Assembly: GCA_902610905.1 (NCBI GenBank)
Contig: CACLXS010000009.1
Location: forward strand, 1-43,022
DNA: 43,022 bases
Direction: 5' to 3'
DNA from: an uncultured SAR86 cluster bacterium
GTDB taxonomy: Bacteria; Pseudomonadota; Gammaproteobacteria; Magnimaribacterales; D2472
Positions 24,215 to 39,879 of this stretch are shown piece after piece. The notes beneath the pieces are model-generated. The model searched no databases. It worked only from the letters and a program-made list of their open reading frames with translations, and had not been told where the DNA came from. A program made the position numbers and the translations under genes. Numbering within the stretch: the first letter of the stretch is position 1; every line of letters starts with the position of its first letter.

Positions 24215-27200
24215 TTAAAACTTGTATCTTAGACCAGCTTTAAAAATAGGACCATGATCTTGATATAAGAACATCATTTCTTCATATCTTGAGAATAGTC
24301 TTACACCTTCATCGCCTATATTAAGAGCTTCGACAAATACAACTGCGTTATCATTGATAACATATGATGCATTAAAGTCAATTTGTCCTCTAGCTTCAAT
24401 AAATAATGGATTAAACTGATCTTCACCTGCATAACTTTCAGCTCTGTAGTTATATGACAACCTTGCAGTATATTTCTCATCTTCATAGAAAACTGAAAGG
24501 TTTGCACCATCACCAAATCCAGGTAAAGCTCTTTGCTCACCAACTAGATAAGGATCAGCTTCTTCATCAGTTCGAAGCTTTGTTACGTTTGCTTGCATAC
24601 CGTATGGAGTTCCTTCAAAGAAGTGTTGAAGCGATAATTCAACACCTGAGAGTTTTCCATCATACTTATTAACTGGTTGAGTAATATTGAACTGTGCTAA
24701 AGCATCATTAGCATCACCAATACCAACCCAGTTAACACCTGAGACTCCATCAATAGCATAAGTGCCTGTTGGCCAACCATTAGTGCTGTCAGCTGTTGGA
24801 TGAGCATATCCTAAACCTACAAATATTGCTTCCCAACAAGCATTTGTTGGTCCAGGAACCCAGCCTTGACCAGGACATTGACCTGCAAGATATGAGGTTT
24901 GAGCTAATCTTGAGTTAAATACATCGGGAACATTATTGAATGATCCAGTGTAGCTGTCAGCTCCATGATAATCTTTAATTTCTTTAGAGAAAACATTTAC
25001 AGCAAAATAACTACCTTCTGCATAGTAGTTTTCATAAGCAAAGTCTAAATTCATAGAAGTATATGGATCCATTGCAGGGTTACCACTTACTAATGAAGTT
25101 GGAGCTCCGTATGAATAGTTTCCTAGATCAAAGCCAGCTCTTGTTTGCCATAATGATGGTTGCGCAATAGTATCACTGACACCAAATCTGATTACTTCAT
25201 TATCATTCAGACCAATACTAATATTAAAAGATGGTAGTAAATAATCGCTCGTTGAAGTTGCATTATATGTACCTTCTTCGGTAACCATTATCAGACCTTG
25301 GTTTTGTCCATATTCTGGAGTACTCCAATCACCAAAACCCCAAACTGTATTAACGGGTACAGTAGCCATACTTGAGGAGGTTCTTGTAATCTCTTCATAT
25401 CTAAGACCTAACTGAGCTTTAACAGGTAAACCATTATATTCAGTATCAAAGTTAAAGTTTACAAATACTGACTCTGTTTCTTCAAGAATATTGTTTAATG
25501 AATCTGGTGTACCAGCACATAAAACACCTCTATTTGATGTTCTCACAGAACCGTTATACAGGTTATTACCGTCGTAACCAACTGCAAGCCAGCCAGTGTT
25601 TTCGCCATTTTCTACAGCATCATCAGCTGTACAAGCTTCACTCCAGTTATTAAGATTAGTCCACCAAAGTGCACCGTTACCAGTTGGATTGATATTACCT
25701 CTTTCCATCCAGTAAATTGCATCTTCAATTGACATATCAGCCCATTGGAAAGTACCTACACTTAAACCAGCCATCCAATCATCAGTAGTTGTCATAGTAA
25801 ATGCATCATCCGGTGTTGCAACAACCGATGGCATTACAGGACTTCCTTCTGTATTACCAGCTACTATTTTTGATCTTGCATTGTAGTTGTCATATTCCAT
25901 TTTAGAAGTTGACAAACCAAATTCAATACTTGAAAGATGATTAATGTTGTCAGAAAGATCTTCCCAAGTTGCTATTATTTGAGTTTGATTAACTGCTCCA
26001 TCAGCAGTAGCTTCTGACATATATGCTTCTCTAGGACCCATATCACCACCAACAAGAGTATCAACAGCTACACCACCTCTTAAGTACTCCTCAGTAAATA
26101 CAGGAACATTTCCTGTCATATCAAGCGTTCTAGCTCCAAGTTTTGCATGACATGATGTCCAATTACCGTTGTATGTCTCCCATGGGTTTGCACCCCATTG
26201 ACCACCAGCACCAAGACATCCGTCCCAGCCACCGTTTGAATAAATTAATACATTATCGCCATTATTTTCAGATGCAGATGTTGATTCATGATGATCAATA
26301 GTTACGTTAAAGTTATCAGTGAATTGGATATCAAGATTTGCACCTTGAGATTTATTTCTTTTAACAGAATCACCATATAAAAATTTATTATCCATAGCAT
26401 TTCCATCACCATTACCAACACCTTGTGGAACAGTTGCTGATATCAATGCTCCATTATTGTTTACAACATATGAGTCAATATCCCAACCTGCCCAGTATGA
26501 TGATTTTTCTCTACCAGTTGTTTCAAATTCCAATGATGAAAACGTATTATCTAATGTTAATACTGCCTTATCAGTTAACTGAATCTGGAATGTTGCTTGA
26601 AAGTTCTGTCTTAATCTTTCATTATCTTTAGCTTTGAAACCAACACTCTCAGGAGTGAATACAACCCCATCAGGTCTTCCTGTTCCAGTTACATTTGTAG
26701 CTGTTAGTCCATAACCACCAGGAACCCATGTAATTTCATTTGTTCCAACTTCTCTATTATGTCTCTCCTGATGTGATCCTGAAACTGCAAAACCAACAGG
26801 TAAAGAATAATCACCAAATTGTAGTTCACTGTCTCTACTAAATAAGAAATCAAATTCAGGTGTGTAATCATCACCTATTTCAACTTTAGTATCATTAACT
26901 GTTCTTACAGAAAAAGATGTAGCATCACCAGTTACTAAAGGTTTTGTAGTAATCATGTTGATTGTTGCTCCAATACCACCAGAAGGTAAAATAGCATTTG
27001 ATGATTTGTATACTTCAACAGCAGAAACACCATGTGAAGATATATCACCAAAGTCAAATCCTCTACCATGCTCGTATTGTCCAGCAACTGTAGGCATAGA
27101 TCTTCCATTTAGAGTAACAAGGTTGAACTGGTAACCTAGACCCCTAACATTAACTCTTGAACCTTCAACGTTACTTCTATCGATAGTAATACCAGAAACT

Positions 27201-27424
27201 CTAGCTAATGATTCAGCAAGGTTTTGATCTGGAAATTTACCAATGTCTTCAGCTGTAATAGCTTCGGTAACACCAACTTTACTTCTTTTAAGTTCAATAG
27301 CGTCAATCAAACTTTGTTTAACACCAAGAACCACCACATCTTCAACTTCTTCTTCTGTTTCATCTTGTGCGATAACAAATGAAAAAGGAATCATTAATAA
27401 TAATGATAATAAATATTTATTCAC
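24215..27424 (-). CDS. TonB-dependent receptor, Caulobacter-type
   Basis: 1069 residues with a signal peptide (1-20). The short acidic stretch DETEEEVEDVVVLG contains the TonB box (about 28-34). The plug motifs AITAEDIGKFPDQNLAESL, GITIDR, VNVRGLG and TLNGR are the hallmark of the TIGR01782 subclass, often used for carbohydrate or other large-molecule uptake. The barrel ends in GLRYKF. The start codon is GTG, supported by a strong AGGGGG ribosome binding site 8 nt upstream. The barrel sequence has many Trp/Asn/Gly loops. The substrate is not deducible; the M64 lipoprotein gene downstream may supply it. Confidence 0.94.
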   Translation of the reverse strand: MNKYLLSLLLMIPFSFVIAQDETEEEVEDVVVLGVKQSLIDAIELKRSKVGVTEAITAEDIGKFPDQNLAESLARVSGITIDRSNVEGSRVNVRGLGYQFNLVTLNGRSMPTVAGQYEHGRGFDFGDISSHGVSAVEVYKSSNAILPSGGIGATINMITTKPLVTGDATSFSVRTVNDTKVEIGDDYTPEFDFLFSRDSELQFGDYSLPVGFAVSGSHQERHNREVGTNEITWVPGGYGLTATNVTGTGRPDGVVFTPESVGFKAKDNERLRQNFQATFQIQLTDKAVLTLDNTFSSLEFETTGREKSSYWAGWDIDSYVVNNNGALISATVPQGVGNGDGNAMDNKFLYGDSVKRNKSQGANLDIQFTDNFNVTIDHHESTSASENNGDNVLIYSNGGWDGCLGAGGQWGANPWETYNGNWTSCHAKLGARTLDMTGNVPVFTEEYLRGGVAVDTLVGGDMGPREAYMSEATADGAVNQTQIIATWEDLSDNINHLSSIEFGLSTSKMEYDNYNARSKIVAGNTEGSPVMPSVVATPDDAFTMTTTDDWMAGLSVGTFQWADMSIEDAIYWMERGNINPTGNGALWWTNLNNWSEACTADDAVENGENTGWLAVGYDGNNLYNGSVRTSNRGVLCAGTPDSLNNILEETESVFVNFNFDTEYNGLPVKAQLGLRYEEITRTSSSMATVPVNTVWGFGDWSTPEYGQNQGLIMVTEEGTYNATSTSDYLLPSFNISIGLNDNEVIRFGVSDTIAQPSLWQTRAGFDLGNYSYGAPTSLVSGNPAMDPYTSMNLDFAYENYYAEGSYFAVNVFSKEIKDYHGADSYTGSFNNVPDVFNSRLAQTSYLAGQCPGQGWVPGPTNACWEAIFVGLGYAHPTADSTNGWPTGTYAIDGVSGVNWVGIGDANDALAQFNITQPVNKYDGKLSGVELSLQHFFEGTPYGMQANVTKLRTDEEADPYLVGEQRALPGFGDGANLSVFYEDEKYTARLSYNYRAESYAGEDQFNPLFIEARGQIDFNASYVINDNAVVFVEALNIGDEGVRLFSRYEEMMFLYQDHGPIFKAGLRYKF

Positions 27425-27563
27425 GGAATTTTCCCCCTTTTATAAAAAACAAATCAATTAGACATCATCGTAAGAAAAACGTCAAGAATTAATTAAAAAT
27501 ATATATTTTGTAAATAATTTACAGAATACATAAAATTAATTAATAAAAAAATATATAAAATTC

Positions 27564-27580
27564 AGTCTTAAAAAAAGACT
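27564..27580 (-). terminator. Possible weak terminator of the RRM gene
   Basis: A 6-bp AT-rich stem AGTCTT/AAGACT with a 5-nt loop lies 20 nt past the RRM stop codon. No strong GC core. Confidence 0.35.
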
Positions 27581-27600
27581 TATTTATTAAAAAAAATTTC

Positions 27601-27846
27601 TTATCGCGATTCGCGAGGTTTTGATTCGTTTACAACAAGCTTTCTACCTTCAACCTCAGCATCATTCAATGCAGCTATTGCATCTTCTGCTCCATCACTC
27701 ATTTCAACAAAACCAAAGCCTCTTGAGCGGTTTGTCATTCTATCAGTGATGATTTTTGCAGATGTTACTGTACCGTGTTCGGCAAAAAGATTTTCTAAAT
27801 CTTGGTCATTCATACCCCAAGATAAGTTTCCAACATATATGTTCAT
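27601..27846 (-). CDS. Small RRM RNA-binding protein
   Basis: 81 residues, a single RNA-recognition motif: RNP2 IYVGNL at 3-8 and RNP1 RGFGFVEM at 42-49, with a short basic tail (ESKPRESR). Bacterial stand-alone RRMs of this type resemble cyanobacterial Rbp proteins and are often cold- or stress-responsive, acting as RNA chaperones; the role here is inferred from family. It lies 60 nt downstream of the patatin gene on the same strand and could be the last gene of that unit, but the low-complexity gap allows its own promoter. The long AT-rich 3' gap (27425-27600) holds nothing else recognisable. Confidence 0.93.
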   Translation of the reverse strand: MNIYVGNLSWGMNDQDLENLFAEHGTVTSAKIITDRMTNRSRGFGFVEMSDGAEDAIAALNDAEVEGRKLVVNESKPRESR

Positions 27847-27906
27847 ATTCTAATGATTAATAAAAAAAGCTATCTTACATGAAAAGTAATGATAAAAGTA
27901 AAAAAA

Positions 27907-28848
27907 TTAATCATTAATAAAATTAATTGTCTCTTCGCCAAATTCTTCCCACCAATTAAGGCCTAATTTATGAATTTTTTCTAAATTTTCATCAGAAGCG
28001 TCATCCAACATTTTATTAATGTTGCCTAATGGAGAATTAATACGAAGATAATTTTTGTCAATAATATCTGTTGCTATGTCGTTGTGAATTTCAGAATCAA
28101 GAACCATACCAATAATGTCATTTCTTAACCAACCAACACCACCCCACTTTGATGAATTCTCACCTTTAATTTTATTTTTGTTTTTGCCGGCACCAATACT
28201 AAGAACTTTTATAGTTTCAGCATTAAAATATTTTTTTGCCTTAATAAATCCTATTATTGAAGGGTTGTTTGTGACAACCCCTCCATCAATCATCCACGAG
28301 CCTGAGCTGATTTGATATGTTGGAAAATACATAGGTGCTGCACTTGATGCACAAACAGCATCTACAAAAGTAATATCAGGGGTTTCAAAGGAGGAGTGAA
28401 TAACATGTTCTCGCCTTTCTATGTCATAGCAAAGAGTTAATATAGGTTTGTGAGAATCACTTAAATTTTTATTTTTAAATAGTTCTTTTAATATCTCAAC
28501 TCTACCCTTAGTTTCATATCTAGGTCTTGCTTGTATCAATGATGCTTGATCCCAAAAAAAAGAAGTTTCCATGATTTTATCTAAGTATTCTTGCGACCAA
28601 TATTTTTTTACCTCTTTGGCACTTAAACCATCACAAGCAAAACATGCTGCATTTAGAGCGCCAGCACTAGTCCCAATAAACATATCAAATGTGTCAAAAA
28701 CTTTTTTTCCTGTCTCTTCTTCAAATTTTTTTAAAAAAACAATTCCAGCAATTGCTCTTACGCCTCCGCCATCAAATGAAATAATTTTTTTTTGAGGTTG
28801 TGTGACTTTTTTATGCTTAAGTGTGCTAAAAATACTGCTTATTTTCAT
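27907..28848 (-). CDS. Patatin-like phospholipase
   Basis: 313 residues. The oxyanion-hole motif FDGGGVRA is at 25-32, the nucleophile Ser61 in GTSAG (59-63), and the catalytic Asp188 in DGG (188-190), the Ser-Asp dyad of patatins. Members release fatty acids from membrane phospholipids or related lipids. There is no signal peptide, and the N-terminus is basic, so it is cytoplasmic or peripherally membrane-bound. It follows the rhodanese gene by 20 nt and belongs to the GMC oxidoreductase - rhodanese - patatin unit, which suggests lipid turnover; that link is inference. Confidence 0.92.
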   Translation of the reverse strand: MKISSIFSTLKHKKVTQPQKKIISFDGGGVRAIAGIVFLKKFEEETGKKVFDTFDMFIGTSAGALNAACFACDGLSAKEVKKYWSQEYLDKIMETSFFWDQASLIQARPRYETKGRVEILKELFKNKNLSDSHKPILTLCYDIERREHVIHSSFETPDITFVDAVCASSAAPMYFPTYQISSGSWMIDGGVVTNNPSIIGFIKAKKYFNAETIKVLSIGAGKNKNKIKGENSSKWGGVGWLRNDIIGMVLDSEIHNDIATDIIDKNYLRINSPLGNINKMLDDASDENLEKIHKLGLNWWEEFGEETINFIND

Positions 28849-28868
28849 AGATAACTTTTAGCTTATAT

Positions 28869-29180
28869 TTATTTAATAATTTTCAAGTTAAGTGTGTCAC
28901 TTGCCTGCTGAAGACTTCCCAAATTTTCTACGTTAACAAATCCCGCATTAACCAGTATTTCAGTTGCTCTTTGAGATCTATTCCCACTACGACAATAAAG
29001 ATATATTTTTTCAGTTTTATTAATATTGTTTTGAATACTTAAAATGTTTTGCCATTCAATATTAATAGCTTTATTTAAACGAGCAGATTGAAACTCTTCT
29101 GGAGTTCTAACATCAATGATTACCTCTGCAATTAAAAGACTTGAAGATATTAAAACGGAGAAAAGAAAATTTTTTATCAA
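28869..29180 (-). CDS. Exported rhodanese-like protein
   Basis: 103 residues with an N-terminal signal sequence (about 1-18) and a single rhodanese domain: VIIDVRTPEEF at 20-30 and the active-site Cys63 in YCRSGNRS. It resembles periplasmic PspE-type thiosulfate sulfurtransferases. The start codon is TTG at 29178-29180, which directly abuts the TAG stop of the GMC oxidoreductase, so translation is likely coupled; no in-frame ATG is available upstream of the domain. Confidence 0.88.
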   Translation of the reverse strand: MIKNFLFSVLISSSLLIAEVIIDVRTPEEFQSARLNKAINIEWQNILSIQNNINKTEKIYLYCRSGNRSQRATEILVNAGFVNVENLGSLQQASDTLNLKIIK

Positions 29181-30866
29181 CTATAGCCAATCCTGAATAA
29201 TCATATCTGATGCTTTTTCTCCAATCATAATTGTTGGAGCATTAGTATTTCCACCAATTAAAGTTGGCATAATAGATGCATCTACAACTCTTAACCCTTT
29301 AAGATTATGAACTTTTAATCTACTATCAACTACCGCCATCTCATCATTGCCCATCTTACATGTTCCGACAGGATGATAGACTGTATCTGCTGTTTCTCTA
29401 ATTGCCTTTTCTATATCTTCATCATCGTCTAAATCAATTGGTCTTAAAACATGCTTGCTTGTATATTTAGAAACAGGCTCTTTATTCATAATTTTCATCA
29501 TTTTTTTATATCCAGCAATCATGTCTTTTACATCATCTGGATGAGATAAAAATTTTGGATCTATCTTTGGATTATCTAGTGGGTCAGCTGAATTTAAAGT
29601 TACTTCACCTCTTGATTTTGGACGAAGTAAACAGGTGTGGCAACTAATGCCTGTTCCCCATATATGTTCCCTGCCATGATCAACGATCATTCCTGGTGAA
29701 AAATGCAACTGTGTATCTGGTATCTCAATATCATTTCTTGATCTAATAAATCCTCCTGCCTCAGCTACTGTTGATGTAAACATTCCTGTTTTTGTAAGGA
29801 TATATTTAAATAACTCATATGGGTATTTAAAAAACAAGGTTCCAATTGAGAAGCCAAAAAGTTTAATTGATTTATATTTATGTACAGTTACATAATCGAT
29901 ATGATCTTGAAGATTTTTTCCTACGCCCGGTAATTCTAATTTATGCTCAATGCCATGTTTTAATATTTCGTCTGCTGGGCCAATGCCTGATCTAAGCAAA
30001 ATTTGAGGAGAGCCAAAAGCTCCGGATGATAGTAAAACTTCTTTAGAAGCTTCAATAATAAACTCATTCCCTTCAGCATTAATGCAAAGAACACCAGTTG
30101 CTTTGCCATCAACAATATTTATTTTGTTAACATTTGTATCAGTTAAGACTGTTAGGTTGTCTCTTTCTAATGCTGGCACCAAATATGCTTTAGCAGTGCT
30201 ACATCTTTTACCGTTTTTTTGAGTGGTTTGATAATAACCAATTCCTTCCTGACTTTCGCCATTAAAGTCTTCGTTATGTCCAAAAATACTTGATCCAGTT
30301 TTAACAAAGTCATCTACAATTTTATTTTTGTGCCTGATTTTATCAACGTTTAATGGACCGCCTTGACCGTGAAAATCGTTATCAAAAATTTCATTGTTTT
30401 CACATTTTTTAAAATAAGGTAGAACTCTCTCAAAAGACCAACCCTCATTTCCTAACTCTGCCCAATGATCATAATCCCACTGATGACCTCTCACATATAA
30501 CATAGCATTGATAGAACTTGAGCCTCCTAATGTCTTACCTCTTGGTTGAAAGCCTCGCCTATGTTCCATAATCTCTGATTCGACTTCGTGTACACCACCA
30601 GCTGAATCAACTATAGAAGATGCTGGCTCAGTTATTGAAACTTGTTCAAATTCTTTTTGAGGCACTGTATTATAATTCCAGCTGTAGCTACTATTACCAC
30701 CTAAGAAAGCAAAACCAAGAGGAACTTTTAATCTCACGTCACTATCTTTTGAGCCTGCTTCAATCAAACAAACTCTAAAATTTGAATTAGAACTTAACCT
30801 ATTTGCTAAAACACACCCAGCTGAGCCTGCTCCTAAAATAATAAAATCGTAGCTTTTAGTTTCCAT
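29181..30866 (-). CDS. GMC-family oxidoreductase (choline/alcohol dehydrogenase-like)
   Basis: 561 residues, FAD-dependent. The Rossmann motif ILGAGSAGCVLANRL starts at residue 10. Signature 1 (RGKTLGGSSSINAM, 109-122), signature 2 (SSGAFGSPQILLRSGIG, 280-296) and the catalytic His498 (HPVGTCKMG) with Asn542 are all present. The family oxidises primary alcohols of many kinds. Compared with choline dehydrogenase there is an insertion of about 30 residues between the FAD lid region and signature 1 (roughly 73-103). The ribosome binding site GAGGAG lies 10 nt before the ATG. First gene of a probable operon with rhodanese and patatin; divergent from the membrane reductase. Confidence 0.92.
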   Translation of the reverse strand: METKSYDFIILGAGSAGCVLANRLSSNSNFRVCLIEAGSKDSDVRLKVPLGFAFLGGNSSYSWNYNTVPQKEFEQVSITEPASSIVDSAGGVHEVESEIMEHRRGFQPRGKTLGGSSSINAMLYVRGHQWDYDHWAELGNEGWSFERVLPYFKKCENNEIFDNDFHGQGGPLNVDKIRHKNKIVDDFVKTGSSIFGHNEDFNGESQEGIGYYQTTQKNGKRCSTAKAYLVPALERDNLTVLTDTNVNKINIVDGKATGVLCINAEGNEFIIEASKEVLLSSGAFGSPQILLRSGIGPADEILKHGIEHKLELPGVGKNLQDHIDYVTVHKYKSIKLFGFSIGTLFFKYPYELFKYILTKTGMFTSTVAEAGGFIRSRNDIEIPDTQLHFSPGMIVDHGREHIWGTGISCHTCLLRPKSRGEVTLNSADPLDNPKIDPKFLSHPDDVKDMIAGYKKMMKIMNKEPVSKYTSKHVLRPIDLDDDEDIEKAIRETADTVYHPVGTCKMGNDEMAVVDSRLKVHNLKGLRVVDASIMPTLIGGNTNAPTIMIGEKASDMIIQDWL

Positions 30867-34065: not shown

Positions 34066-34142
34066 TAAAAATTATCATGTAAAAAAACAATATATCTTTT
34101 TAGTTCTTATTAAGAGCTAAGTCAATTTATTACGCATTATAT

Positions 34143-34172
34143 AAAAAGAGAGCTAATTTTAGCTCTCTTTTT
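34143..34172 (-). terminator. Rho-independent terminator of the riboswitch/peptide unit
   Basis: A 12-bp perfect stem (34143-34154 with 34161-34172, loop AATTTT) with GAGAGCT core and flanking A/T, 12 nt after the peptide stop codon. Confidence 0.9.
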
Positions 34173-34184
34173 CAACCTTACTAT

Positions 34185-34349
34185 TTATAAATAATAAGGA
34201 AAAAATACATCCTTTTTAGGCTTAGACTTATGCTCAGTTTTATTTTGTGTGCGTAAGTTGTAATTTAGCTTGTTAATTGCAATTTGTAACATAACATTAC
34301 TGCCTATTTTAGGTGTGTTTTGTTTTTTGTGAATGTTTAAAGCATTCAT
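34185..34349 (-). CDS. 54-residue basic peptide downstream of tandem glutamine riboswitches
   Basis: An in-frame ATG at 34386-34388 would give 67 residues, but it lies inside the riboswitch. The ATG at 34347-34349 has an excellent GGAG ribosome binding site 5 nt upstream and is chosen. The peptide is strongly basic (many Lys, Arg, Asn, Gln), has no signal or membrane span, and ends aromatic (KKDVFFPYYL). No family is recognised. In cyanobacteria, the same RNA class controls short proteins, including the glutamine-synthetase inhibitor IF17, so a role in nitrogen control is an attractive but unproven idea; I see no obvious similarity to IF7/IF17. It is followed by a strong terminator, so it is a stand-alone output of the RNA. 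Confidence 0.75.
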   Translation of the reverse strand: MNALNIHKKQNTPKIGSNVMLQIAINKLNYNLRTQNKTEHKSKPKKDVFFPYYL

Positions 34350-34352
34350 AAC

Positions 34353-34370
34353 ATCTCCTTTTAAAAAGAT
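34353..34370 (-). promoter_or_regulatory. Hairpin that can mask the peptide's ribosome binding site
   Basis: On the minus strand ATCTTTT can pair with AGGAGAT (two G:U pairs), burying GGAG (34355-34358). It begins immediately after the last base of the proximal riboswitch, as expected of an expression platform. Confidence 0.5.
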
Positions 34371-34418
34371 GCGTTCCTTCGGCATCATTACCTACTTCCG
34401 TCTCTTTCGAGATGAACG
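34371..34418 (-). ncRNA. Glutamine riboswitch (glnA / Downstream-peptide motif), proximal copy
   Basis: Minus-strand RNA. P1 CGTTC pairs with GAACG; P2 TCTC/GAGA closes a GAAA tetraloop; the conserved CGGAAGTA follows; P3 GG/CC closes a variable loop; then the conserved GAAG leads into GAACGC. This matches the glnA-motif consensus known to bind L-glutamine. It ends 21 nt before the start codon. Confidence 0.88.
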
Positions 34419-34426
34419 ATGATAAT

Positions 34427-34472
34427 GCGTTCCTTCATCTTACGATTACTTCCGTCCCCTTAAGGATGAACG
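34427..34472 (-). ncRNA. Glutamine riboswitch (glnA / Downstream-peptide motif), distal copy
   Basis: Same conserved segments as the proximal copy (CGTTC, CGGAAGTA, GAAG, GAACGC), but P2 is TCCT/GGGA and P3 is ATC/GAT, so pairing is kept while the bases differ. The two copies are 8 nt apart. Tandem glnA RNAs are known from cyanobacteria and marine metagenomes. Confidence 0.87.
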
Positions 34473-34527
34473 ATTAAAAAATAGTAACAAAGAATATATA
34501 TATACAAACTATATATAAACCCGTGGT

Positions 34528-34537
34528 ACCCGGCTGG
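34528..34537 (-). repeat. Short piece of the dispersed leader repeat (copy D2)
   Basis: ACCCGGCTGG within GTGGTACCCGGCTGG, shared with copies A (35663-35672) and C (38695-38704). It lies upstream of the riboswitch, before an AT-rich stretch that probably holds its promoter. Confidence 0.5.
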
Positions 34538-34552
34538 AACTTTTGATTCTTT

Positions 34553-34654
34553 CTATGTGTTATCGCTATCTTTATATTCTAAATCAGATTTATCAAAAAT
34601 TTTTCTTTCAGATTTACCAAAGATTTTATAAATGAAATTTTTCAACCAACTCAT
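34553..34654 (-). CDS. Possible 33-residue small protein
   Basis: ATG at 34652-34654, stop TAG at 34553-34555. The sequence is MSWLKNFIYKIFGKSERKIF, then KSDLEYKDSDNT: an amphipathic basic first half and an acidic tail. A good GGAG ribosome binding site stands 5 nt upstream, within the shared GAGATGTTATGA start context also seen at 34349 and 37168. Its ATG overlaps, as ATGA, the stop of an upstream 22-codon frame. No family recognised. Confidence 0.5.
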   Translation of the reverse strand: MSWLKNFIYKIFGKSERKIFDKSDLEYKDSDNT

Positions 34655-34719
34655 AACATCTCCAAGTTAAAATAATATTTATCAATAATGCCATAAGAGT
34701 TTGTCAAAATAAAATGCAT
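34651..34719 (-). other. Possible leader peptide frame (22 codons)
   Basis: Begins MHFILTN, starts inside a copy of the dispersed leader repeat, and its TGA overlaps the ATG of the 33-residue frame. Copy C holds a related frame (MCFILTN). There is no protein-level support beyond that pair. Confidence 0.3.
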
Positions 34720-34725
34720 TGTTTA
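34690..34725 (-). repeat. Dispersed leader repeat, partial copy D1
   Basis: Shares the TTTGT-AAAATAAAA-GCATTGTTTA stretch with copy C (38599-38637). Lies between the 33-residue frame and the divergent gene at 34735. Confidence 0.6.
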
Positions 34726-34734
34726 GGATAGGTT

Positions 34735-35004
34735 ATGAAAAAAATATCACTATTACTATTTTCGCTACCATTAATAACTTTTGCAGAATCCATTTCAGAT
34801 AAAAGATTGGTATCTGAACTTTCTATAAATGAGTTAAAACAAATCGTTAGAAGCATTGTTGAAGAAAGTATTGAACAATGCGTTGTTACTGGAACTATGG
34901 AAGGAAGAGCTAAGGTTAATCTTAAAGTTGAAGGTGAAGTTATTGCAAAGATGGAATGTGAGTTCGAAAAACCAAAAAAATTAGAGGAAGTAAAAAAAGA
35001 TTAA
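34735..35004 (+). CDS. Small exported protein, unknown
   Basis: 89 residues with a clear signal peptide (about 1-17, cleaved after TFA). The mature 72-residue part starts helical (LVSELSINELKQIVRSIVEESIEQ) and continues as short strands (VVTGTMEGRAKVNLKVEGEVIAKMECEFE) with two cysteines (49 and 75), ending in a Lys/Glu-rich tail. It could form one disulfide in the periplasm. No family recognised. An AGGATAGG purine run just before the ATG is the likely ribosome binding site. It is divergent from the 33-residue frame and convergent with the cupin gene (46-bp gap, no clear hairpin). Confidence 0.65.
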   Translation: MKKISLLLFSLPLITFAESISDKRLVSELSINELKQIVRSIVEESIEQCVVTGTMEGRAKVNLKVEGEVIAKMECEFEKPKKLEEVKKD

Positions 35005-35050
35005 TTTAATCTCCATAAAAATTTATAAGAGGGAGAGTGCAACTAAAAAA

Positions 35051-35596
35051 CTATTTCCAGGCTCCGTACTCACTTCTTCCATTTTTTCTCAGCCCGTAAG
35101 GGCCAGCAATATAAAGTGTAATTGGCTTAATACCAGCTTCTAAGTCAACTCGATGTAAATTATCAGCACTTCTAATACCTATATAAAATTTTCCACGCCA
35201 TTTTTTTTCTTTTTTAATATTTGTCTCCCAGTACCCGCCACTTAAAATAATTGTTATATATGGAAAAGGATGATTATGAAGTCCAATCCCGTGGTCATTA
35301 TCTATAATATGATTAATAAAAATGTTGAAAAGAAACCACTTCGGCCTTTTCCTAAATAATAAATAATACCTATCAGTCCATGGTTTAGCTAAATGATATT
35401 CTGGGTGTGAGGGACCTCTATCCATCACAACTCTTTTTCGTCCTAATTTTTCGAGAATCTTAAGAAAAAACATAGAAATAATAATGCCATAACATACAAA
35501 CATACCCCATAAAAAAAGCCAACTATTGTGGATGTGATTATAAGTGAAAACAATAAAGCCATTATTAAAGATAATTTTGAGTAAAGCAAAACACAT
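35051..35596 (-). CDS. Cupin-like protein with N-terminal membrane span
   Basis: Up to 181 residues. Residues about 26-47 are a hydrophobic span; the rest is a small cupin barrel with a likely metal site: His107 and His109 in GLHNHPFPYITIILSGGYWE, and His148 in RSADNLHRVDL. This motif spacing occurs in phage- and island-encoded RmlC-like cupins of unknown function. The start is uncertain: the ATG at 35594-35596 lies in the dispersed leader repeat and has no ribosome binding site, and residues about 22-32 are encoded by an attachment-like sequence (35500-35531). Internal starts at Met32 or Met42 are possible. It looks like a gene whose 5' end was altered by recombination. Confidence 0.65.
   Translation of the reverse strand: MCFALLKIIFNNGFIVFTYNHIHNSWLFLWGMFVCYGIIISMFFLKILEKLGRKRVVMDRGPSHPEYHLAKPWTDRYYLLFRKRPKWFLFNIFINHIIDNDHGIGLHNHPFPYITIILSGGYWETNIKKEKKWRGKFYIGIRSADNLHRVDLEAGIKPITLYIAGPYGLRKNGRSEYGAWK
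35500..35531. repeat. Attachment-like sequence inside the cupin gene
   Basis: Matches 39758-39789 (sequence next to and including the tRNA-Glu terminator) in 30 of 32 positions, with the first 21 identical. In this copy the terminator stem is broken. Confidence 0.7.
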
Positions 35597-35684
35597 TATT
35601 TATAACTAGTTAACAGCTTAAAACCTCTCAAAATATTCAACCACTAGATATATACCTGGGGTACCCGGCTGGTACTCCTGCCCC
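35588..35684 (-). repeat. Dispersed leader repeat, copy A
   Basis: Shares CTAGTTAA, the 37-nt block at 35620-35656, and ACCCGGCTGGTA...TGCCCC with copy C (38599-38716); copy B shares the central block. Lies upstream of the cupin gene. Confidence 0.8.
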
Positions 35685-35800
35685 TATGTAACTCTTTTAG
35701 TTTTGTTAAGTTACTTTTAATTAACAAACTATTACAGGAATGTAACTTGAAAAACACATTTAACACATCTAATGTTTAGTTAGTAGGGAGAACAATAAAT

Positions 35801-36577
35801 ATGAAATTAATATACACACTAATATTTTGCTTTTTTTCATTTGGATTGATAGCAGAAACTTCAGAACAATACACCTATAGAGCCGAGTTTTTCTTTGGTA
35901 ATATCAATGAAGGTAAATCATATGAAGATGTTAAAAACCAGAATATGGAATACCTAAAATTTCTTAAAGATAATGACCTAAAGTATGGAAGAGCCCTATT
36001 TGTGCCCATATGGGCGGGTGAAACAAAATATGACATTATTCAATATGGTTATTGGCCAAATGGACAAGAACAATACAAAGAATGGGGAGCCTACATGAAT
36101 AAATATCCAGCATGGGCTTCTGAAAATAGTGAATTTGAAGATGAGGCAGTTGAAGTTGGTAGAAGTGTTTCTATGTTTGGTGTTAGAGCCAGAGGAATTA
36201 GAATACCAAATGAAGAATATGATAGATTTAAATTTGTAGACTTTAGACAGTGTTCATTTACAAGTAATGGAAACATGGAAAATCTCTTAGATTTGAATTC
36301 AAGAATAGAGTCTAGTGAGAGAGAAATGGGTAACAGGGCTGGTTATGGAGTCCATTATTTAAGGCCTTACAGAGGTTTTGATTCAGATATTGACTATGAC
36401 TTTGTAATAATGCGTCATTACTATAATGCTAAAAGCAGAGCCGATATCGTAACAAGCACTCCATCTTATAGAGAGATGATGGAAAAGGAAGGTTATTGGA
36501 AGGAATTTAGAGAAAATATAAATTGTGGTCCCCAGTCAACATATAGAGTTGAATGGCTATATAACTCAGACTCGTAA
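35801..36577 (+). CDS. Secreted protein with two tandem alpha/beta repeats (paralogue of 17195-17947)
   Basis: 258 residues with a signal peptide (about 1-18). Two related units follow: around 29-100 (FFFGNINEGKSYEDVKN... to QEQYKEWGAYM) and around 145-225 (FVDFRQCSFTSNGNMENL... to FVIMRHYYNAKS). The NxGKxxEDV signature, the helix after it, the paired strands and the Cys in the second unit line up with the protein at 17195-17947, so the two are distant paralogues. Function unknown; the fold resembles dimeric alpha-beta barrels. A GGGAG ribosome binding site lies upstream. It ends just before the duplicated tRNA-Glu fragment, whose hairpin probably terminates it. Confidence 0.75.
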   Translation: MKLIYTLIFCFFSFGLIAETSEQYTYRAEFFFGNINEGKSYEDVKNQNMEYLKFLKDNDLKYGRALFVPIWAGETKYDIIQYGYWPNGQEQYKEWGAYMNKYPAWASENSEFEDEAVEVGRSVSMFGVRARGIRIPNEEYDRFKFVDFRQCSFTSNGNMENLLDLNSRIESSEREMGNRAGYGVHYLRPYRGFDSDIDYDFVIMRHYYNAKSRADIVTSTPSYREMMEKEGYWKEFRENINCGPQSTYRVEWLYNSDS

Positions 36578-36618
36578 ACACTAAAATACGGAAAAGTTAC
36601 ATTATTTTCGTAAGACGC

Positions 36619-36670
36619 AAAAAAAGCCCACTAATGTGGGCTTCTTAGTAAATTGGCATCCCGTAGGGGA
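36619..36670. repeat. attL-like direct repeat (tRNA-Glu 3' end plus terminator)
   Basis: 52 nt identical to 39769-39820 except for one base (36634 A against 39784 C). It carries the last 17 nt of tRNA-Glu and the tRNA's terminator hairpin. Confidence 0.93.
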
Positions 36671-36685
36671 TGCCTTAATTTTTTT
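36655..36685 (+). terminator. Rho-independent terminator built on the tRNA-Glu remnant
   Basis: GGCATCCC (36655-36662) pairs with GGGATGCC (36667-36674), loop GTAG, then TTAATTTTTTT. Half the stem is the tRNA 3' end. It is positioned to end the 35801-36577 transcript. Confidence 0.8.
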
Positions 36686-36706
36686 AAAATTAATAATTAA
36701 AAAAAT

Positions 36707-37168
36707 TTATACACAAGGAACATCGGTACTTCTATCTTTCGATTCTAATGAATTAATCTTCCATCCATCAGAGCTATTAATATAAACATAATGTGCCCTG
36801 CCTTCGAAAAGCAATTTATCATTGTTATTGTATCTAGAGTAATCAGCGCATAATAAATAAGTATCATCTTTAACATTAGTTACGCTAATACTATCTATCA
36901 CGCTGTATGCGTAACCTTCTTGTATATTGGCTTTGAGGTCTTTAAAAAAACGAATTACATCTTCATTTGTTTCCGCAATGTCATTAAATGATTTTAAATC
37001 AACTGGGGTATCAAAATAACTAGCAATACTTTCAAAATCATTGGCAATAAAATCATCTACATAGAGTTGATATAATTTTTGTATTTCAAATCTATTTAAA
37101 TCATCTTCATTATTTACAGAACAGCTTACTGCAAAAAAGATACAACAAATCATTATCAGCTTTCTCAT
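36707..37168 (-). CDS. Small lipoprotein, NTF2/SnoaL-like fold
   Basis: 153 residues. The signal ends FFAVSC, so Cys16 would be lipidated. The mature part starts with a helix (EIQKLYQLYVDDFIANDFESIASYF), then DTPVDL, a second helix (DVIRFFKDLKANIQ), and four strands ending HYVYINSSDGWKINSLES: the layout of NTF2-like/SnoaL-like cone-shaped domains. No catalytic residues can be named. It is cargo of the tRNA-Glu islet. An AAGAGATGTTATGAG start context resembles those at 34349 and 34654, and leader repeat copy B lies just upstream. Confidence 0.75.
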   Translation of the reverse strand: MRKLIMICCIFFAVSCSVNNEDDLNRFEIQKLYQLYVDDFIANDFESIASYFDTPVDLKSFNDIAETNEDVIRFFKDLKANIQEGYAYSVIDSISVTNVKDDTYLLCADYSRYNNNDKLLFEGRAHYVYINSSDGWKINSLESKDRSTDVPCV

Positions 37169-37200
37169 AACATCTCTTGTTAATAAATAATCTAGATAAT

Positions 37201-37297
37201 GCCAGGCTAACTTGTAAAGATAAATTATATATTTTATGTATATTGTTTATAACTAGTTAAGACCCCAAAACCTCTCAAAATATTCAACCGCTAGATA
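37201..37297 (-). repeat. Dispersed leader repeat, copy B
   Basis: Shares ATTGTTTA-AACTAGTTAA-ACCCC and the AAAACCTCTCAAAATATTC block with copies A and C, but lacks the CCGGCTGG end. Upstream of the small lipoprotein gene. Confidence 0.75.
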
Positions 37298-37350
37298 AAG
37301 ACATGAGTTGAAAGTAATATAAAGCTACTTATCAATAAGAACCGATATTT

Positions 37351-38562
37351 TTAGTTAATGTTTTTATATACAACTGAACGAAATTGTTTTTGTATCTCAA
37401 TTTGAAATGGTGTTGTTCTACTCATAAAAAGACCATATATTCCATTCGTTTGATCAATCCAAAAATGTGTATTATGGTAACCTGACCACCCAAAAATACC
37501 CCTTGGTGATCCTGTTCCATCTAAAAGTGGTTCCTGAAGAGAAAACATTGAATATGAGTATCCAAATCCATCATCATATCCGCCTGCTATAAAATGATCT
37601 GTTACAACACTTGTCATAAGTTTGAATGAGTCCTCAGATATAATAATTTTATCATTATAGCTGCCTGCTGAAAGAAGCATTTCACAAAATTTTCTGTAAT
37701 CATTAAAAGTACTTACTAAACCTTCTCCACCAAGTTGTTTTTTTGATGTCTTGTCATAATTTAATTCATCAAAGTTTTTCGTAATGCTGCTCACTCCGCT
37801 GTCAGGCATTAATAAGTTAATACCCGCTTCCTTTTGAGCTTTTCTATATAGAGGTTGAAACTTTTCTCTGTCTTCCTCAGTCAAATAGAATTTTGTATCT
37901 TTCATTTCTAAAGGATCAAATATATTTTCTTTGAGGAATAGATAAAATTCTTGTCCTGACAAAACTTCAACAAGTCTGCCTAAAATTGCTTGATTAATTC
38001 CATAGAGATATTCAGTTCCAGGTTCAAAATTTACAGGACGATTTGCAACATGTCTTACAAATTCATCTAGATCTTTAAATGGGTCTCTGTGGTCAGGCAC
38101 GTTTGCACCAAAAGCAACATATCCATACCCACTTCTATGTGACAAAAGATGTTCAATTAAAAGATCATTTGCGCAATTATAAGTTCCGATGCTTTCTTCT
38201 TCTGATTTACATTGAAGATTATCAAAGTATGGTAAATATTTTTTTACTGGATCTTTAACATCAAATAATTGTCTGTCTCTGAGAATCATCATTGCAACAA
38301 TTGTTATTGGTTTAGACATCGACCAAATTGGAAATATTGTCTCATTAGAAATTGACTTATCTCCTTCAATGTTTGAGTTAACAATAGAAAATGCTAAAGT
38401 CTTGTCTTTTGAATATACTCCAGCGACATTAGAGCCAGTTACACCTGCATTTACGAGTACTTTTTGATAGGACTCAACAGAACTTTGTAATTCATTTCCT
38501 AATAATATATGTGATGAGAAAAGAACTACGTAAATAAAGAAATTAGTTTTTTTAAATAACAT
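37351..38562 (-). CDS. Serine hydrolase of the beta-lactamase / class C family
   Basis: 403 residues with an N-terminal signal (about 1-22). The nucleophile motif SxxK is S81-MS-K84 in IWSMSKPITIVAMM; Tyr187 in GTEYLYGINQAILG sits at the YxN/YS position; and HSGYG-like HRSGYGYVAFG (142-152) and GWSGYHNTHFWID near the C-terminus fit the family's active-site edges (the last in place of KTG). Members include esterases, D-amino-acid peptidases and carboxypeptidases as well as beta-lactamases; resistance cannot be inferred. It is cargo of the tRNA-Glu islet and has leader repeat copy C upstream. Confidence 0.88.
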   Translation of the reverse strand: MLFKKTNFFIYVVLFSSHILLGNELQSSVESYQKVLVNAGVTGSNVAGVYSKDKTLAFSIVNSNIEGDKSISNETIFPIWSMSKPITIVAMMILRDRQLFDVKDPVKKYLPYFDNLQCKSEEESIGTYNCANDLLIEHLLSHRSGYGYVAFGANVPDHRDPFKDLDEFVRHVANRPVNFEPGTEYLYGINQAILGRLVEVLSGQEFYLFLKENIFDPLEMKDTKFYLTEEDREKFQPLYRKAQKEAGINLLMPDSGVSSITKNFDELNYDKTSKKQLGGEGLVSTFNDYRKFCEMLLSAGSYNDKIIISEDSFKLMTSVVTDHFIAGGYDDGFGYSYSMFSLQEPLLDGTGSPRGIFGWSGYHNTHFWIDQTNGIYGLFMSRTTPFQIEIQKQFRSVVYKNIN

Positions 38563-38574
38563 TTTTATAAAGTA

Positions 38575-38628
38575 TTAATTAATATAACGTCTCATTTTGC
38601 CACAACAATTTGTTAAAATAAAACACAT
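38575..38628 (-). other. Possible leader peptide frame (17 codons)
   Basis: MCFILTNCCGKMRRYIN, begins inside leader repeat copy C and stops 12 nt before the hydrolase ATG. Related to the MHFILTN frame at 34651-34719. May be only a by-product of the DNA repeat. Confidence 0.3.
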
Positions 38629-38716
38629 TGTTTAAATCTAGTTAATACCCCAAAACCTCTCAAAATATTCAACCACTAGATATATACCCACCCCACCCGG
38701 CTGGTATTCCTGCCCC
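38599..38716 (-). repeat. Dispersed leader repeat, copy C
   Basis: The fullest copy: GCCA...TTTGTTAAAATAAAAC, CTAGTTAA, the central block at 38652-38688 and ACCCGGCTGGTA...TGCCCC. It fills the gap between the hydrolase start and the GIY-YIG stop codon. Confidence 0.85.
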
Positions 38717-38718
38717 AC

Positions 38719-39642
38719 CTAGTTTTCGTTTAGACCAAATGCTCGAGAGCCAAGTTTACTCTTAAGCAATGACTCATATCGCAAAACATCATTCCTACTC
38801 ACTGTTCTTGGAAAGACATGATGAAGTGAGTATGTAAAGTTATTTGCAAACTCAGAATTCATTTTAGCAAGAGCTTTTAGAGCCTTGTTACCATTATGCC
38901 CTGTTCTTGCATAGCCCTCCCATCTAGACCAAATACCATTACCTCCTGAGGCAGAGCCAACATATTGCAAACCTGAAGACGAATCAAAGATTACATAAAC
39001 ACCTGAATGTCTTGAGAGATATTCATACCAGTCTTTATTACCATAAGGATTATTAATTATTTCTTTTAACTCTTGATGCGACAAATGCACCTTATCCCAT
39101 CCCGGAAATATAGATACGAAACCTTTTGGATAGATTTCTATTACTTCCTTATCTAGCTTCTTTTGGACATAAGTTTGAGATTTACCCCAGTCAATAACCA
39201 GTCTATTCCTATAAGTCTCTAACAATTGAGACTGTTCAAGTTTGTAAAATAATTGCTTACTTAATGGCGGAGGTCTTTTATATTTTTTATTTCCATAATA
39301 AACGTCTGTAATTGATTTAAGATAGTTCTGGTAAGCAGAATATCCTGAATAGTATTTCTTAGCTTGATTGAAAGAAATTCTTCCATGATTAATGAAAGCA
39401 CCTCTAAATAGAGCTTTGGACTTTGGCATGGCAACAAAATTTAAAACTATATCAGTATCTTTATATTTGTCTGCAGTCATATTCCCAGAGAATACGCTTA
39501 GTAATTCGTCATCAAACCTAATCAAGTCATCAAAACCATCCCAGCCTCTACCTTTCATAACATGACGAGTAGCCTTAATGCAGAGACTATCAGCATTTGG
39601 TTCTTCTAATTTTATTAAGTCTTGTAATGTTAAATCTGACAT
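38719..39642 (-). CDS. GIY-YIG nuclease-domain protein next to tRNA-Glu
   Basis: 307 residues. The C-terminal domain (about 211-307) is a GIY-YIG nuclease: SGVYVI (213-218), YVGSA (227-231), Arg240 in IWSRWEGYA and the catalytic Glu290 in RYESLLKSKLGSRAFGLN. The N-terminal 200 residues are not recognised; they are basic and aromatic and may bind DNA. There is no signal peptide. Relatives include homing and restriction endonucleases. Here the gene is the first one inside the islet after the tRNA 3' end and after five GGACACA repeats, the place where an integrase usually lies. Whether it moves the islet, defends it, or is plain cargo is unknown. Confidence 0.85.
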   Translation of the reverse strand: MSDLTLQDLIKLEEPNADSLCIKATRHVMKGRGWDGFDDLIRFDDELLSVFSGNMTADKYKDTDIVLNFVAMPKSKALFRGAFINHGRISFNQAKKYYSGYSAYQNYLKSITDVYYGNKKYKRPPPLSKQLFYKLEQSQLLETYRNRLVIDWGKSQTYVQKKLDKEVIEIYPKGFVSIFPGWDKVHLSHQELKEIINNPYGNKDWYEYLSRHSGVYVIFDSSSGLQYVGSASGGNGIWSRWEGYARTGHNGNKALKALAKMNSEFANNFTYSLHHVFPRTVSRNDVLRYESLLKSKLGSRAFGLNEN

Positions 39643-39662
39643 ATTTTGATTTTAACTTATGT

Positions 39663-39760
39663 GGACACACTTTAACTAATGGTGGACACAAATATGGACA
39701 CATCTAAAACTATAGAATCCTATACCTTCAAATATATGCAATGGACACATCATGGACACA
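39663..39760. repeat. Five direct GGACACA repeats
   Basis: GGACACA at 39663, 39684, 39696, 39743 and 39754, all in one orientation, between the GIY-YIG start and the tRNA-Glu terminator. The arrangement resembles arm-type sites beside an attachment core. Confidence 0.7.
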
Positions 39761-39768
39761 TACCCCAT

Positions 39769-39792
39769 AAAAAAAGCCCACTACTGTGGGCT
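39769..39792 (-). terminator. Terminator of tRNA-Glu
   Basis: The stem AGCCCAC (39775-39781) / GTGGGCT (39786-39792) with a 4-nt loop is followed on the minus strand by seven T. Duplicated at 36619-36642. Confidence 0.88.
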
Positions 39793-39820
39793 TCTTAGTA
39801 AATTGGCATCCCGTAGGGGA
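39769..39820. repeat. attR-like direct repeat in tRNA-Glu
   Basis: Partner of 36619-36670, 51 of 52 identical, 3150 bp apart; overlaps the last 17 nt of the tRNA. Confidence 0.93.
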
Positions 39821-39879
39821 GTCGAACCCCTGTTGCCGAGATGAAAACCCGGTGTCCTAGGCCTCTAGACGAACGGGAC
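39804..39879 (-). tRNA. tRNA-Glu(TTC)
   Basis: A 76-nt cloverleaf with encoded CCA; anticodon loop TTTTCAT reads TTC; T-arm AGGGGTTCGACTCCCCT. The acceptor stem is GTCCCGT/ACGGGAT, so the first pair is G1:U72 instead of the common G1:C72. Its 3' end is the islet attachment site. Confidence 0.96.

Follow-up and report, generated by a model that had tools for sequence, protein, structure and literature searches.

A tandem glutamine riboswitch ahead of a conserved microprotein gene in a SAR86 bacterium, with relatives across the order and in marine viruses

Described glutamine riboswitch systems

Type 1 glutamine riboswitches (the glnA motif) have been published as confined to cyanobacteria and marine metagenomes, and those ahead of glutamine synthetase (GS) and ammonium-transporter genes were previously seen only in unassigned environmental sequences (PMC6316151). 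The cyanobacterial type 1 and type 2 members that were tested are ON switches, and their targets are DUF4278 proteins, including the GS inactivating factor IF17 (PMC6316151). Tandem glutamine riboswitches were reported as 157 doublets and 4 triplets, for which a sharper response is the published expectation (PMC9481103). The class also occurs in the marine myophages Melnitz and Mosig, being linked to tmRNA in Melnitz (PMC9004378). The riboswitch class, the tandem arrangement, and the small-protein targets are already known (PMC2864571, PMC9481103, PMC6316151). What this analysis adds is the clade that owns the switch, a family of microproteins, the CAUCU platform, a regulon spanning the order, and microproteins encoded by viruses. 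A literature search of mostly open-access papers found nothing that links SAR86 to the glutamine riboswitch.

The locus described here lies in a stretch of 43,022 nucleotides (the window) from a SAR86 genome, i.e. from a small-genome ocean bacterium of the Gammaproteobacteria. With type 1 riboswitches it shares full-length matches and a leader position ahead of a gene that is nitrogen-related or encodes a small protein, whereas its host is SAR86 and its platform is a CAUCU anti-Shine-Dalgarno (SD) arm. With the Downstream-peptide or type 2 motif (RF01704) it shares a glutamine riboswitch before a short conserved open reading frame (ORF) without assigned function (PMC2864571), but the aptamer is of the glnA type and the peptide is not DUF4278. 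Like the gifB gene of cyanobacteria, which encodes IF17, it combines a glutamine riboswitch with a small basic protein; in contrast to IF17, this protein has no DUF4278 similarity, the GS is here GlnII, and inhibition of GS by the microprotein would hold by analogy. Compared with published pseudo-cooperative tandems, it likewise places two same-class aptamers in series, but a platform is visible on the second aptamer only, and a conserved linker could couple both. Melnitz and Mosig, viruses of streamlined marine bacteria, share the riboswitch class; unlike the tmRNA-linked riboswitch of Melnitz, the window holds a chromosomal microprotein locus, and the IMG/VR contigs carry microproteins.

Architecture of the tandem leader

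The features of the locus are collected in Table 1. Both aptamers were found by cmscan run at gathering thresholds (35 for RF01739); they are full-length model matches (1-53 of 53) and lie 26-27 bits above the cut-off. A sequence-only reading had placed two tandem minus-strand glutamine riboswitches at 34371-34472, which agrees with the two matches to within 3 bases, and all of its motif letters and P2/P3 helices recur in the cmscan alignment. Herein, both copies keep the RF01739 core of CGUUC, CGGAAGUA, and GAAGGAACGC with P1, P2, and P3 pairing, P2 being UCCU/GGGA and UCUC/GAGA and P3 AUC/GAU and GG/CC in the two copies. Its assignment to a glnA/Downstream-peptide motif stands for the glnA half, with RF01739 above gathering for both copies, and falls for the other half, as RF01704 has no match in the window at its gathering score. 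The gammaproteobacterial genome that it had supposed proved to be SAR86. From the sequence, both aptamers are expected to bind L-glutamine.

Table 1. Positions of the leader, the microprotein gene, and the neighboring tRNA gene in the window
Feature	Position	Strand	Evidence
Glutamine riboswitch aptamer 1 (RF01739)	34424-34474	minus	cmscan 62.2 bits, E 1.6e-11
Linker CAUUAUCAU between the P1 helices	34419-34427	minus	invariant in six relatives, three genera
Glutamine riboswitch aptamer 2 (RF01739)	34368-34420	minus	cmscan 61.0 bits, E 3.5e-11
SD-sequestering hairpin GCAUCUUUU-UAAA-AGGAGAUGU (CAUCU...AGGAGAUG)	34351-34372	minus	-6.7 kcal/mol, z -4.25
Shine-Dalgarno AGGAG	34355-34359	minus	sequence
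Microprotein MNALNIHKKQ...KKDVFFPYYL, 54 aa, basic	34185-34349	minus	conserved ORF
Intrinsic terminator	34139-34176	minus	13-bp stem ending in a U-run, -17 kcal/mol, z -5.85
tRNA-Glu	39804-39879		repeats beside it bound 35493-39751

Among six relatives, pairing is kept in 99.4% of all pair cells of the structure, compared with 26-58% in slid controls. Covariation is thin because the relatives are close, amounting to one compensatory pair (P3 of copy 1) that does not rise above shuffles. The aptamer pair forms the 5' leader of a conserved ORF that has an SD and starts approximately 20 nt downstream of aptamer 2. Directly upstream of the leader lies a 33-codon ORF (34553-34654, minus strand) with the same ribosome-site context, GGAGATGTTATGA.

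An expression platform is seen only for aptamer 2, and aptamer 1 leads into the 9-nt linker. This platform is the SD hairpin, whose first G and C are also the 3' end of aptamer 2 and whose arm CAUCU pairs with AGAUG. In SAR86, the CAUCU arm is present in 34 of the 35 short-leader aptamers (SD within 36 nt), the sole exception being CUUCU, and in 0 of the 55 long-leader ones. This count took only loci from RF01739 or other family searches without the leader pattern, and pattern searches that fix CATCT and AGGAGATG were left out as evidence for the pairing. The specific part of the hairpin is the CAUCU arm, because the strand AGGAGAUGUUAUGA recurs in the window as ribosome-site context (34651-34672 and 37165-37186). 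The inner hairpin varies by gene family: it is UUGCC...GGCAG in DUF4177 leaders and CUUUC/GAAGG in gltB leaders, in which the arm has another SD strand as its partner (CAUCUUUC/GAAGGAUG). Microprotein genes, DUF4177 genes, and gltB carry the CAUCU platform; GS, porin-amtB, and TonB genes have a different, long leader.

Direction of control

In the proposed mechanism, glutamine would lock P1 of aptamer 2, whereby the hairpin would lose its closing C and the ribosome site would be freed. The microprotein would then be produced when glutamine is plentiful (ON), with aptamer 1 steepening the response. It would damp nitrogen assimilation, the type II glutamine synthetase GlnII being the first candidate target. 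Such a tandem glutamine ON switch on a microprotein that damps nitrogen assimilation, analogous to IF17, is the reading that we favor at slightly better than even confidence. We infer its ON direction from the tested cyanobacterial cases (PMC6316151) and from the nature of the targets, and the products of the microprotein, DUF4177, and gltB targets make sense at high glutamine.

The thermodynamic test of ON versus OFF did not separate the sign: the hairpin forms in both states, and in nearest-neighbor folding SD accessibility is the same (approximately 0.1 in the window) whether or not P1 and the shared C are present. The opposite sign, in which glutamine melts a short helix below P1 and frees CAUCU to pair with the SD strand, turning the microprotein OFF, appears rather unlikely to us. 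It would agree with the hairpin being predicted whenever its arm is free, even with P1 formed. It would also fit the crystal-structure paper on the Synechococcus elongatus aptamer, in which ligand binding reportedly melts a short helix below P1. However, this platform also precedes gltB, whose product consumes glutamine, and the tested cyanobacterial glutamine riboswitches activate expression (PMC6316151).

The linker and a possible coupling of the aptamers

The ON switch, which remains the preferred reading, may be extended by a coupling of the two aptamers; this is an addition to it and not its opposite. The tail CAUUAUC of aptamer 1 would herein pair with GGUAAUG, the 5' side of P3 of aptamer 2, breaking both aptamers, and ligand on one would free the other, resulting in true cooperativity. 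The linker can indeed form 7 bp with this strand. In the predicted ligand-free ensemble (folding, with the ligand not modeled), both P1 helices are absent (near 0) and the linker-P3 helix dominates with 7.7 pairs; with aptamer 1 held folded it weakens to 4.2, but P1 of aptamer 2 then rises to just 0.05. The replacement of P1 by the linker-P3 helix is predicted in CAUUA-type tandems, and in several other tandems P1 is replaced by P1 strand exchange. The linker is unchanged across three genera, and one virus (L234, n=1) carries the compensatory change CAUUGUU/GGCAAUG. Furthermore, GG[TC]AATG occurs in P3 of all 17 tandems with CATT-linkers and of 1 of the 27 with other linkers, but this association is confounded by common ancestry, and the identical P3 loop also occurs in some single aptamers. 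With linkers shuffled, the window gives P = 0.06, which is suggestive only. On balance, the coupling is regarded as improbable.

The 54-residue microprotein

The microprotein belongs to a family, here named after its C terminus FFPYYL, that is found in 11 of the 203 genomes of the order (7 of genus g1, 1 of g3, and 3 of g7), with a tandem riboswitch directly upstream in all 11. Within the genus, differences per site amount to 0.40 for synonymous and 0.053 for nonsynonymous sites (ratio 0.13), and 30 of the 46 variable columns fall on third codon positions. Judging from these substitutions, the microprotein is under purifying selection. In the family alignment, the C terminus KK[DE][VL]FFPYYL is nearly invariant. 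The AlphaFold model (mean pLDDT of 73) shows a single main helix (residues 17-41) and a C terminus that is extended. That the small ORF yields no functional product, the RNA itself or the translation of the leader being what matters, could be argued from a product that is very short, basic, and by its pLDDT partly disordered, but the third-position substitutions and the C terminus reveal strong constraint at the protein level and leave this reading hardly credible.

No match to the microprotein was found in PHROGs, NCBIfam, or PDB sequences or, for its model, among PDB folds; Pfam gave none at E up to 1, and hence no DUF4278. No GlnII enzyme is known to be under the control of IF-like proteins. 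Proteins of this kind are small and testable, and their target could be sought by pull-down.

As the terminator lies directly 3' of the gene, the transcript is probably monocistronic. A simple terminator scan made no call at this position, where folding reveals the terminator, and similar hairpins are present downstream of microprotein orthologs. Neither riboswitch nor microprotein gene is present in 10 of the 17 sampled genomes of the window's genus, and the relative G053 (91-95% identical) is without exactly window positions 34076-35043, as well as without 35493-39751. The function of the microprotein is hence dispensable.

Distribution and targets in SAR86

RF01739 is present in 49 of the 99 genomes of the host family and in 95 of the 203 genomes of the order, 81 of them over the cut-off. 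Families f3 (L116 and others; g12, g18) and f2 (g14) show weak matches, mostly below the cut-off, that may represent a divergent aptamer variant. Of 369 genomes drawn from the class, a single one outside the order, G486 (1.1 Mb), has RF01739, and among 14 control genomes only Synechococcus elongatus had a match.

The targets differ by clade. The riboswitch precedes glnII in genus g6 and family f4, glnA in f4, and in both clades the gene of a Gcw_chp outer-membrane protein, with amtB coming next wherever the adjoining gene is readable. In g6 it also precedes a TonB receptor gene, in genus g16 of f3 gltB, and in g2, g5, and the window's genome an operon of circularly permuted ATP-grasp and alpha-E genes. 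DUF4177 genes follow it in g9 and DUF4278 microproteins in g2, g7, and g9; the other targets in the order are microproteins without known domain. Hence, SAR86, a common group of surface-ocean heterotrophs, is now one owner of the glutamine riboswitches on GS and ammonium-transporter genes, and a type of control known from cyanobacteria is also present on nitrogen genes of an abundant marine lineage. In g6 and f4 (loci L004-L012, L086, L092, and L098-L113), some of the glnII/glnA and porin-amtB riboswitches occur as triplets (L044, L123, L124), and the long leaders there have the elements GUUAAAC...GUUUAAC and CUGCAG...UGCA in common.

Adenylylation control of GS is absent, since GlnE is absent in 41 of 41 SAR86 genomes and GlnII is the only GS found in the window's genome. 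PII is missing from 9 of 10 g6 genomes and, by listing, from every f4 genome, and almost all remaining genomes have it; GS and porin-amtB riboswitches are seen only in g6 and f4. The absence of PII thus tracks these riboswitches, which is a correlation over two clades and not a test. The order can be considered a natural experiment, as the switch controls microproteins or gltB in PII-containing genera and GS and amtB in two PII-less lineages. We tentatively propose, at somewhat below even confidence, that SAR86 and uncultivated marine viruses share riboswitch-controlled dampers of nitrogen assimilation of 45-60 aa outside the cyanobacteria, and that, where PII was lost, the riboswitch directly controls GS and the ammonium transporter operon, with RNA sensing replacing protein sensors.

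In G486, the non-SAR86 gammaproteobacterium (L115, L118, L166), riboswitches precede gltB and a gltD-like gene, and a CACCAAACU/AGUUUGGUG hairpin adjoins the aptamer.

History of the locus and a third copy

In genus g1, that of the window, the neighbors of the locus are kept: epimerase, steroid dehydrogenase, and GMC oxidoreductase genes flank it on one side, and SpoU and SecDF genes flank the opposite side; g3 keeps the first three. Mobile DNA nearby, as presumed by the sequence-only reading, was recovered as a tRNA-Glu island (35488-39820) that is mostly absent in G053. It has repeats at 35488, 36596/36619, and 39746/39769, and a 52-nt direct repeat (36619-36670 and 39769-39820) includes the 3' end of the tRNA. 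Among its cargo genes, one encodes a protein of the beta-lactamase fold and another a product that weakly matches a group I intron endonuclease. From these comparisons, the riboswitch locus itself is inherited and the island lies next door.

The earlier hint of horizontal transfer finds no support as far as a recent event at the window locus is concerned, because the class is order-wide (49/99 in the family, 95/203 in the order) and the locus is syntenic in relatives, with conserved neighbors in its own genus and g3. Recent acquisition from cyanobacteria or cyanophages is accordingly judged very unlikely, even though the island lies 1-5 kb from the locus, the locus is patchy within the genus, viral contigs have a matching leader, and a third copy represents a genuine inter-genus transfer; searches of IMG/VR and INPHARED phages found no relative of the window's microprotein.

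This third aptamer of the same genome (G000:C5:27974-28027, 66.6 bits) lies in a 4.3-kb tract (G000:C5 approximately 25,500-29,800) that is 99-100% identical to the genus g5 genome G091. The tract (L272-L274; L013) carries CP-ATP-grasp, Alpha-E, and proteasome-like genes; on either side of it the sequence matches the own genus at 92-99% identity, and its right border falls inside a thiolase gene. By its identity profile, it is of the pattern of recent inter-genus homologous recombination. Contamination of the bin was considered and rejected, as the contig matches the own genus at 88-97% identity on both flanks and is collinear with it there; the contig is probably no chimeric assembly.

Viral relatives

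Virus-borne versions of the leader exist. In IMG/VR, the exact leader pattern occurs in 62 contigs and a relaxed pattern in 67. Their products include MTKYQ...LPxYITDNPFYP proteins, DUF4278-like YRG proteins, fusions of both, and proteins ending in ...FFVPDYLK. One of these loci adjoins the gene for a major head protein of the T4 type, and another adjoins ribonucleotide reductase. Bacterial members of the NPFYP family are present in SAR86 family f2; Pfam-style libraries and INPHARED yielded no match to the NPFYP type. Homology of the window's microprotein to the viral and f2 NPFYP families was rejected, as scores lie within the range of shuffled decoys; HHalign gives the window family a probability of 42% against viral NPFYP/FFVPDYLK, over 13 C-terminal columns only.

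The IMG/VR contigs L171-L238 carry microproteins with a riboswitch and an anti-SD leader of the SAR86 type. A 335-kb contig binned as Neomarinimicrobiota (L074) encodes a riboswitch-controlled DUF4278-like peptide that is identical to that of the 93-kb viral contig L198.
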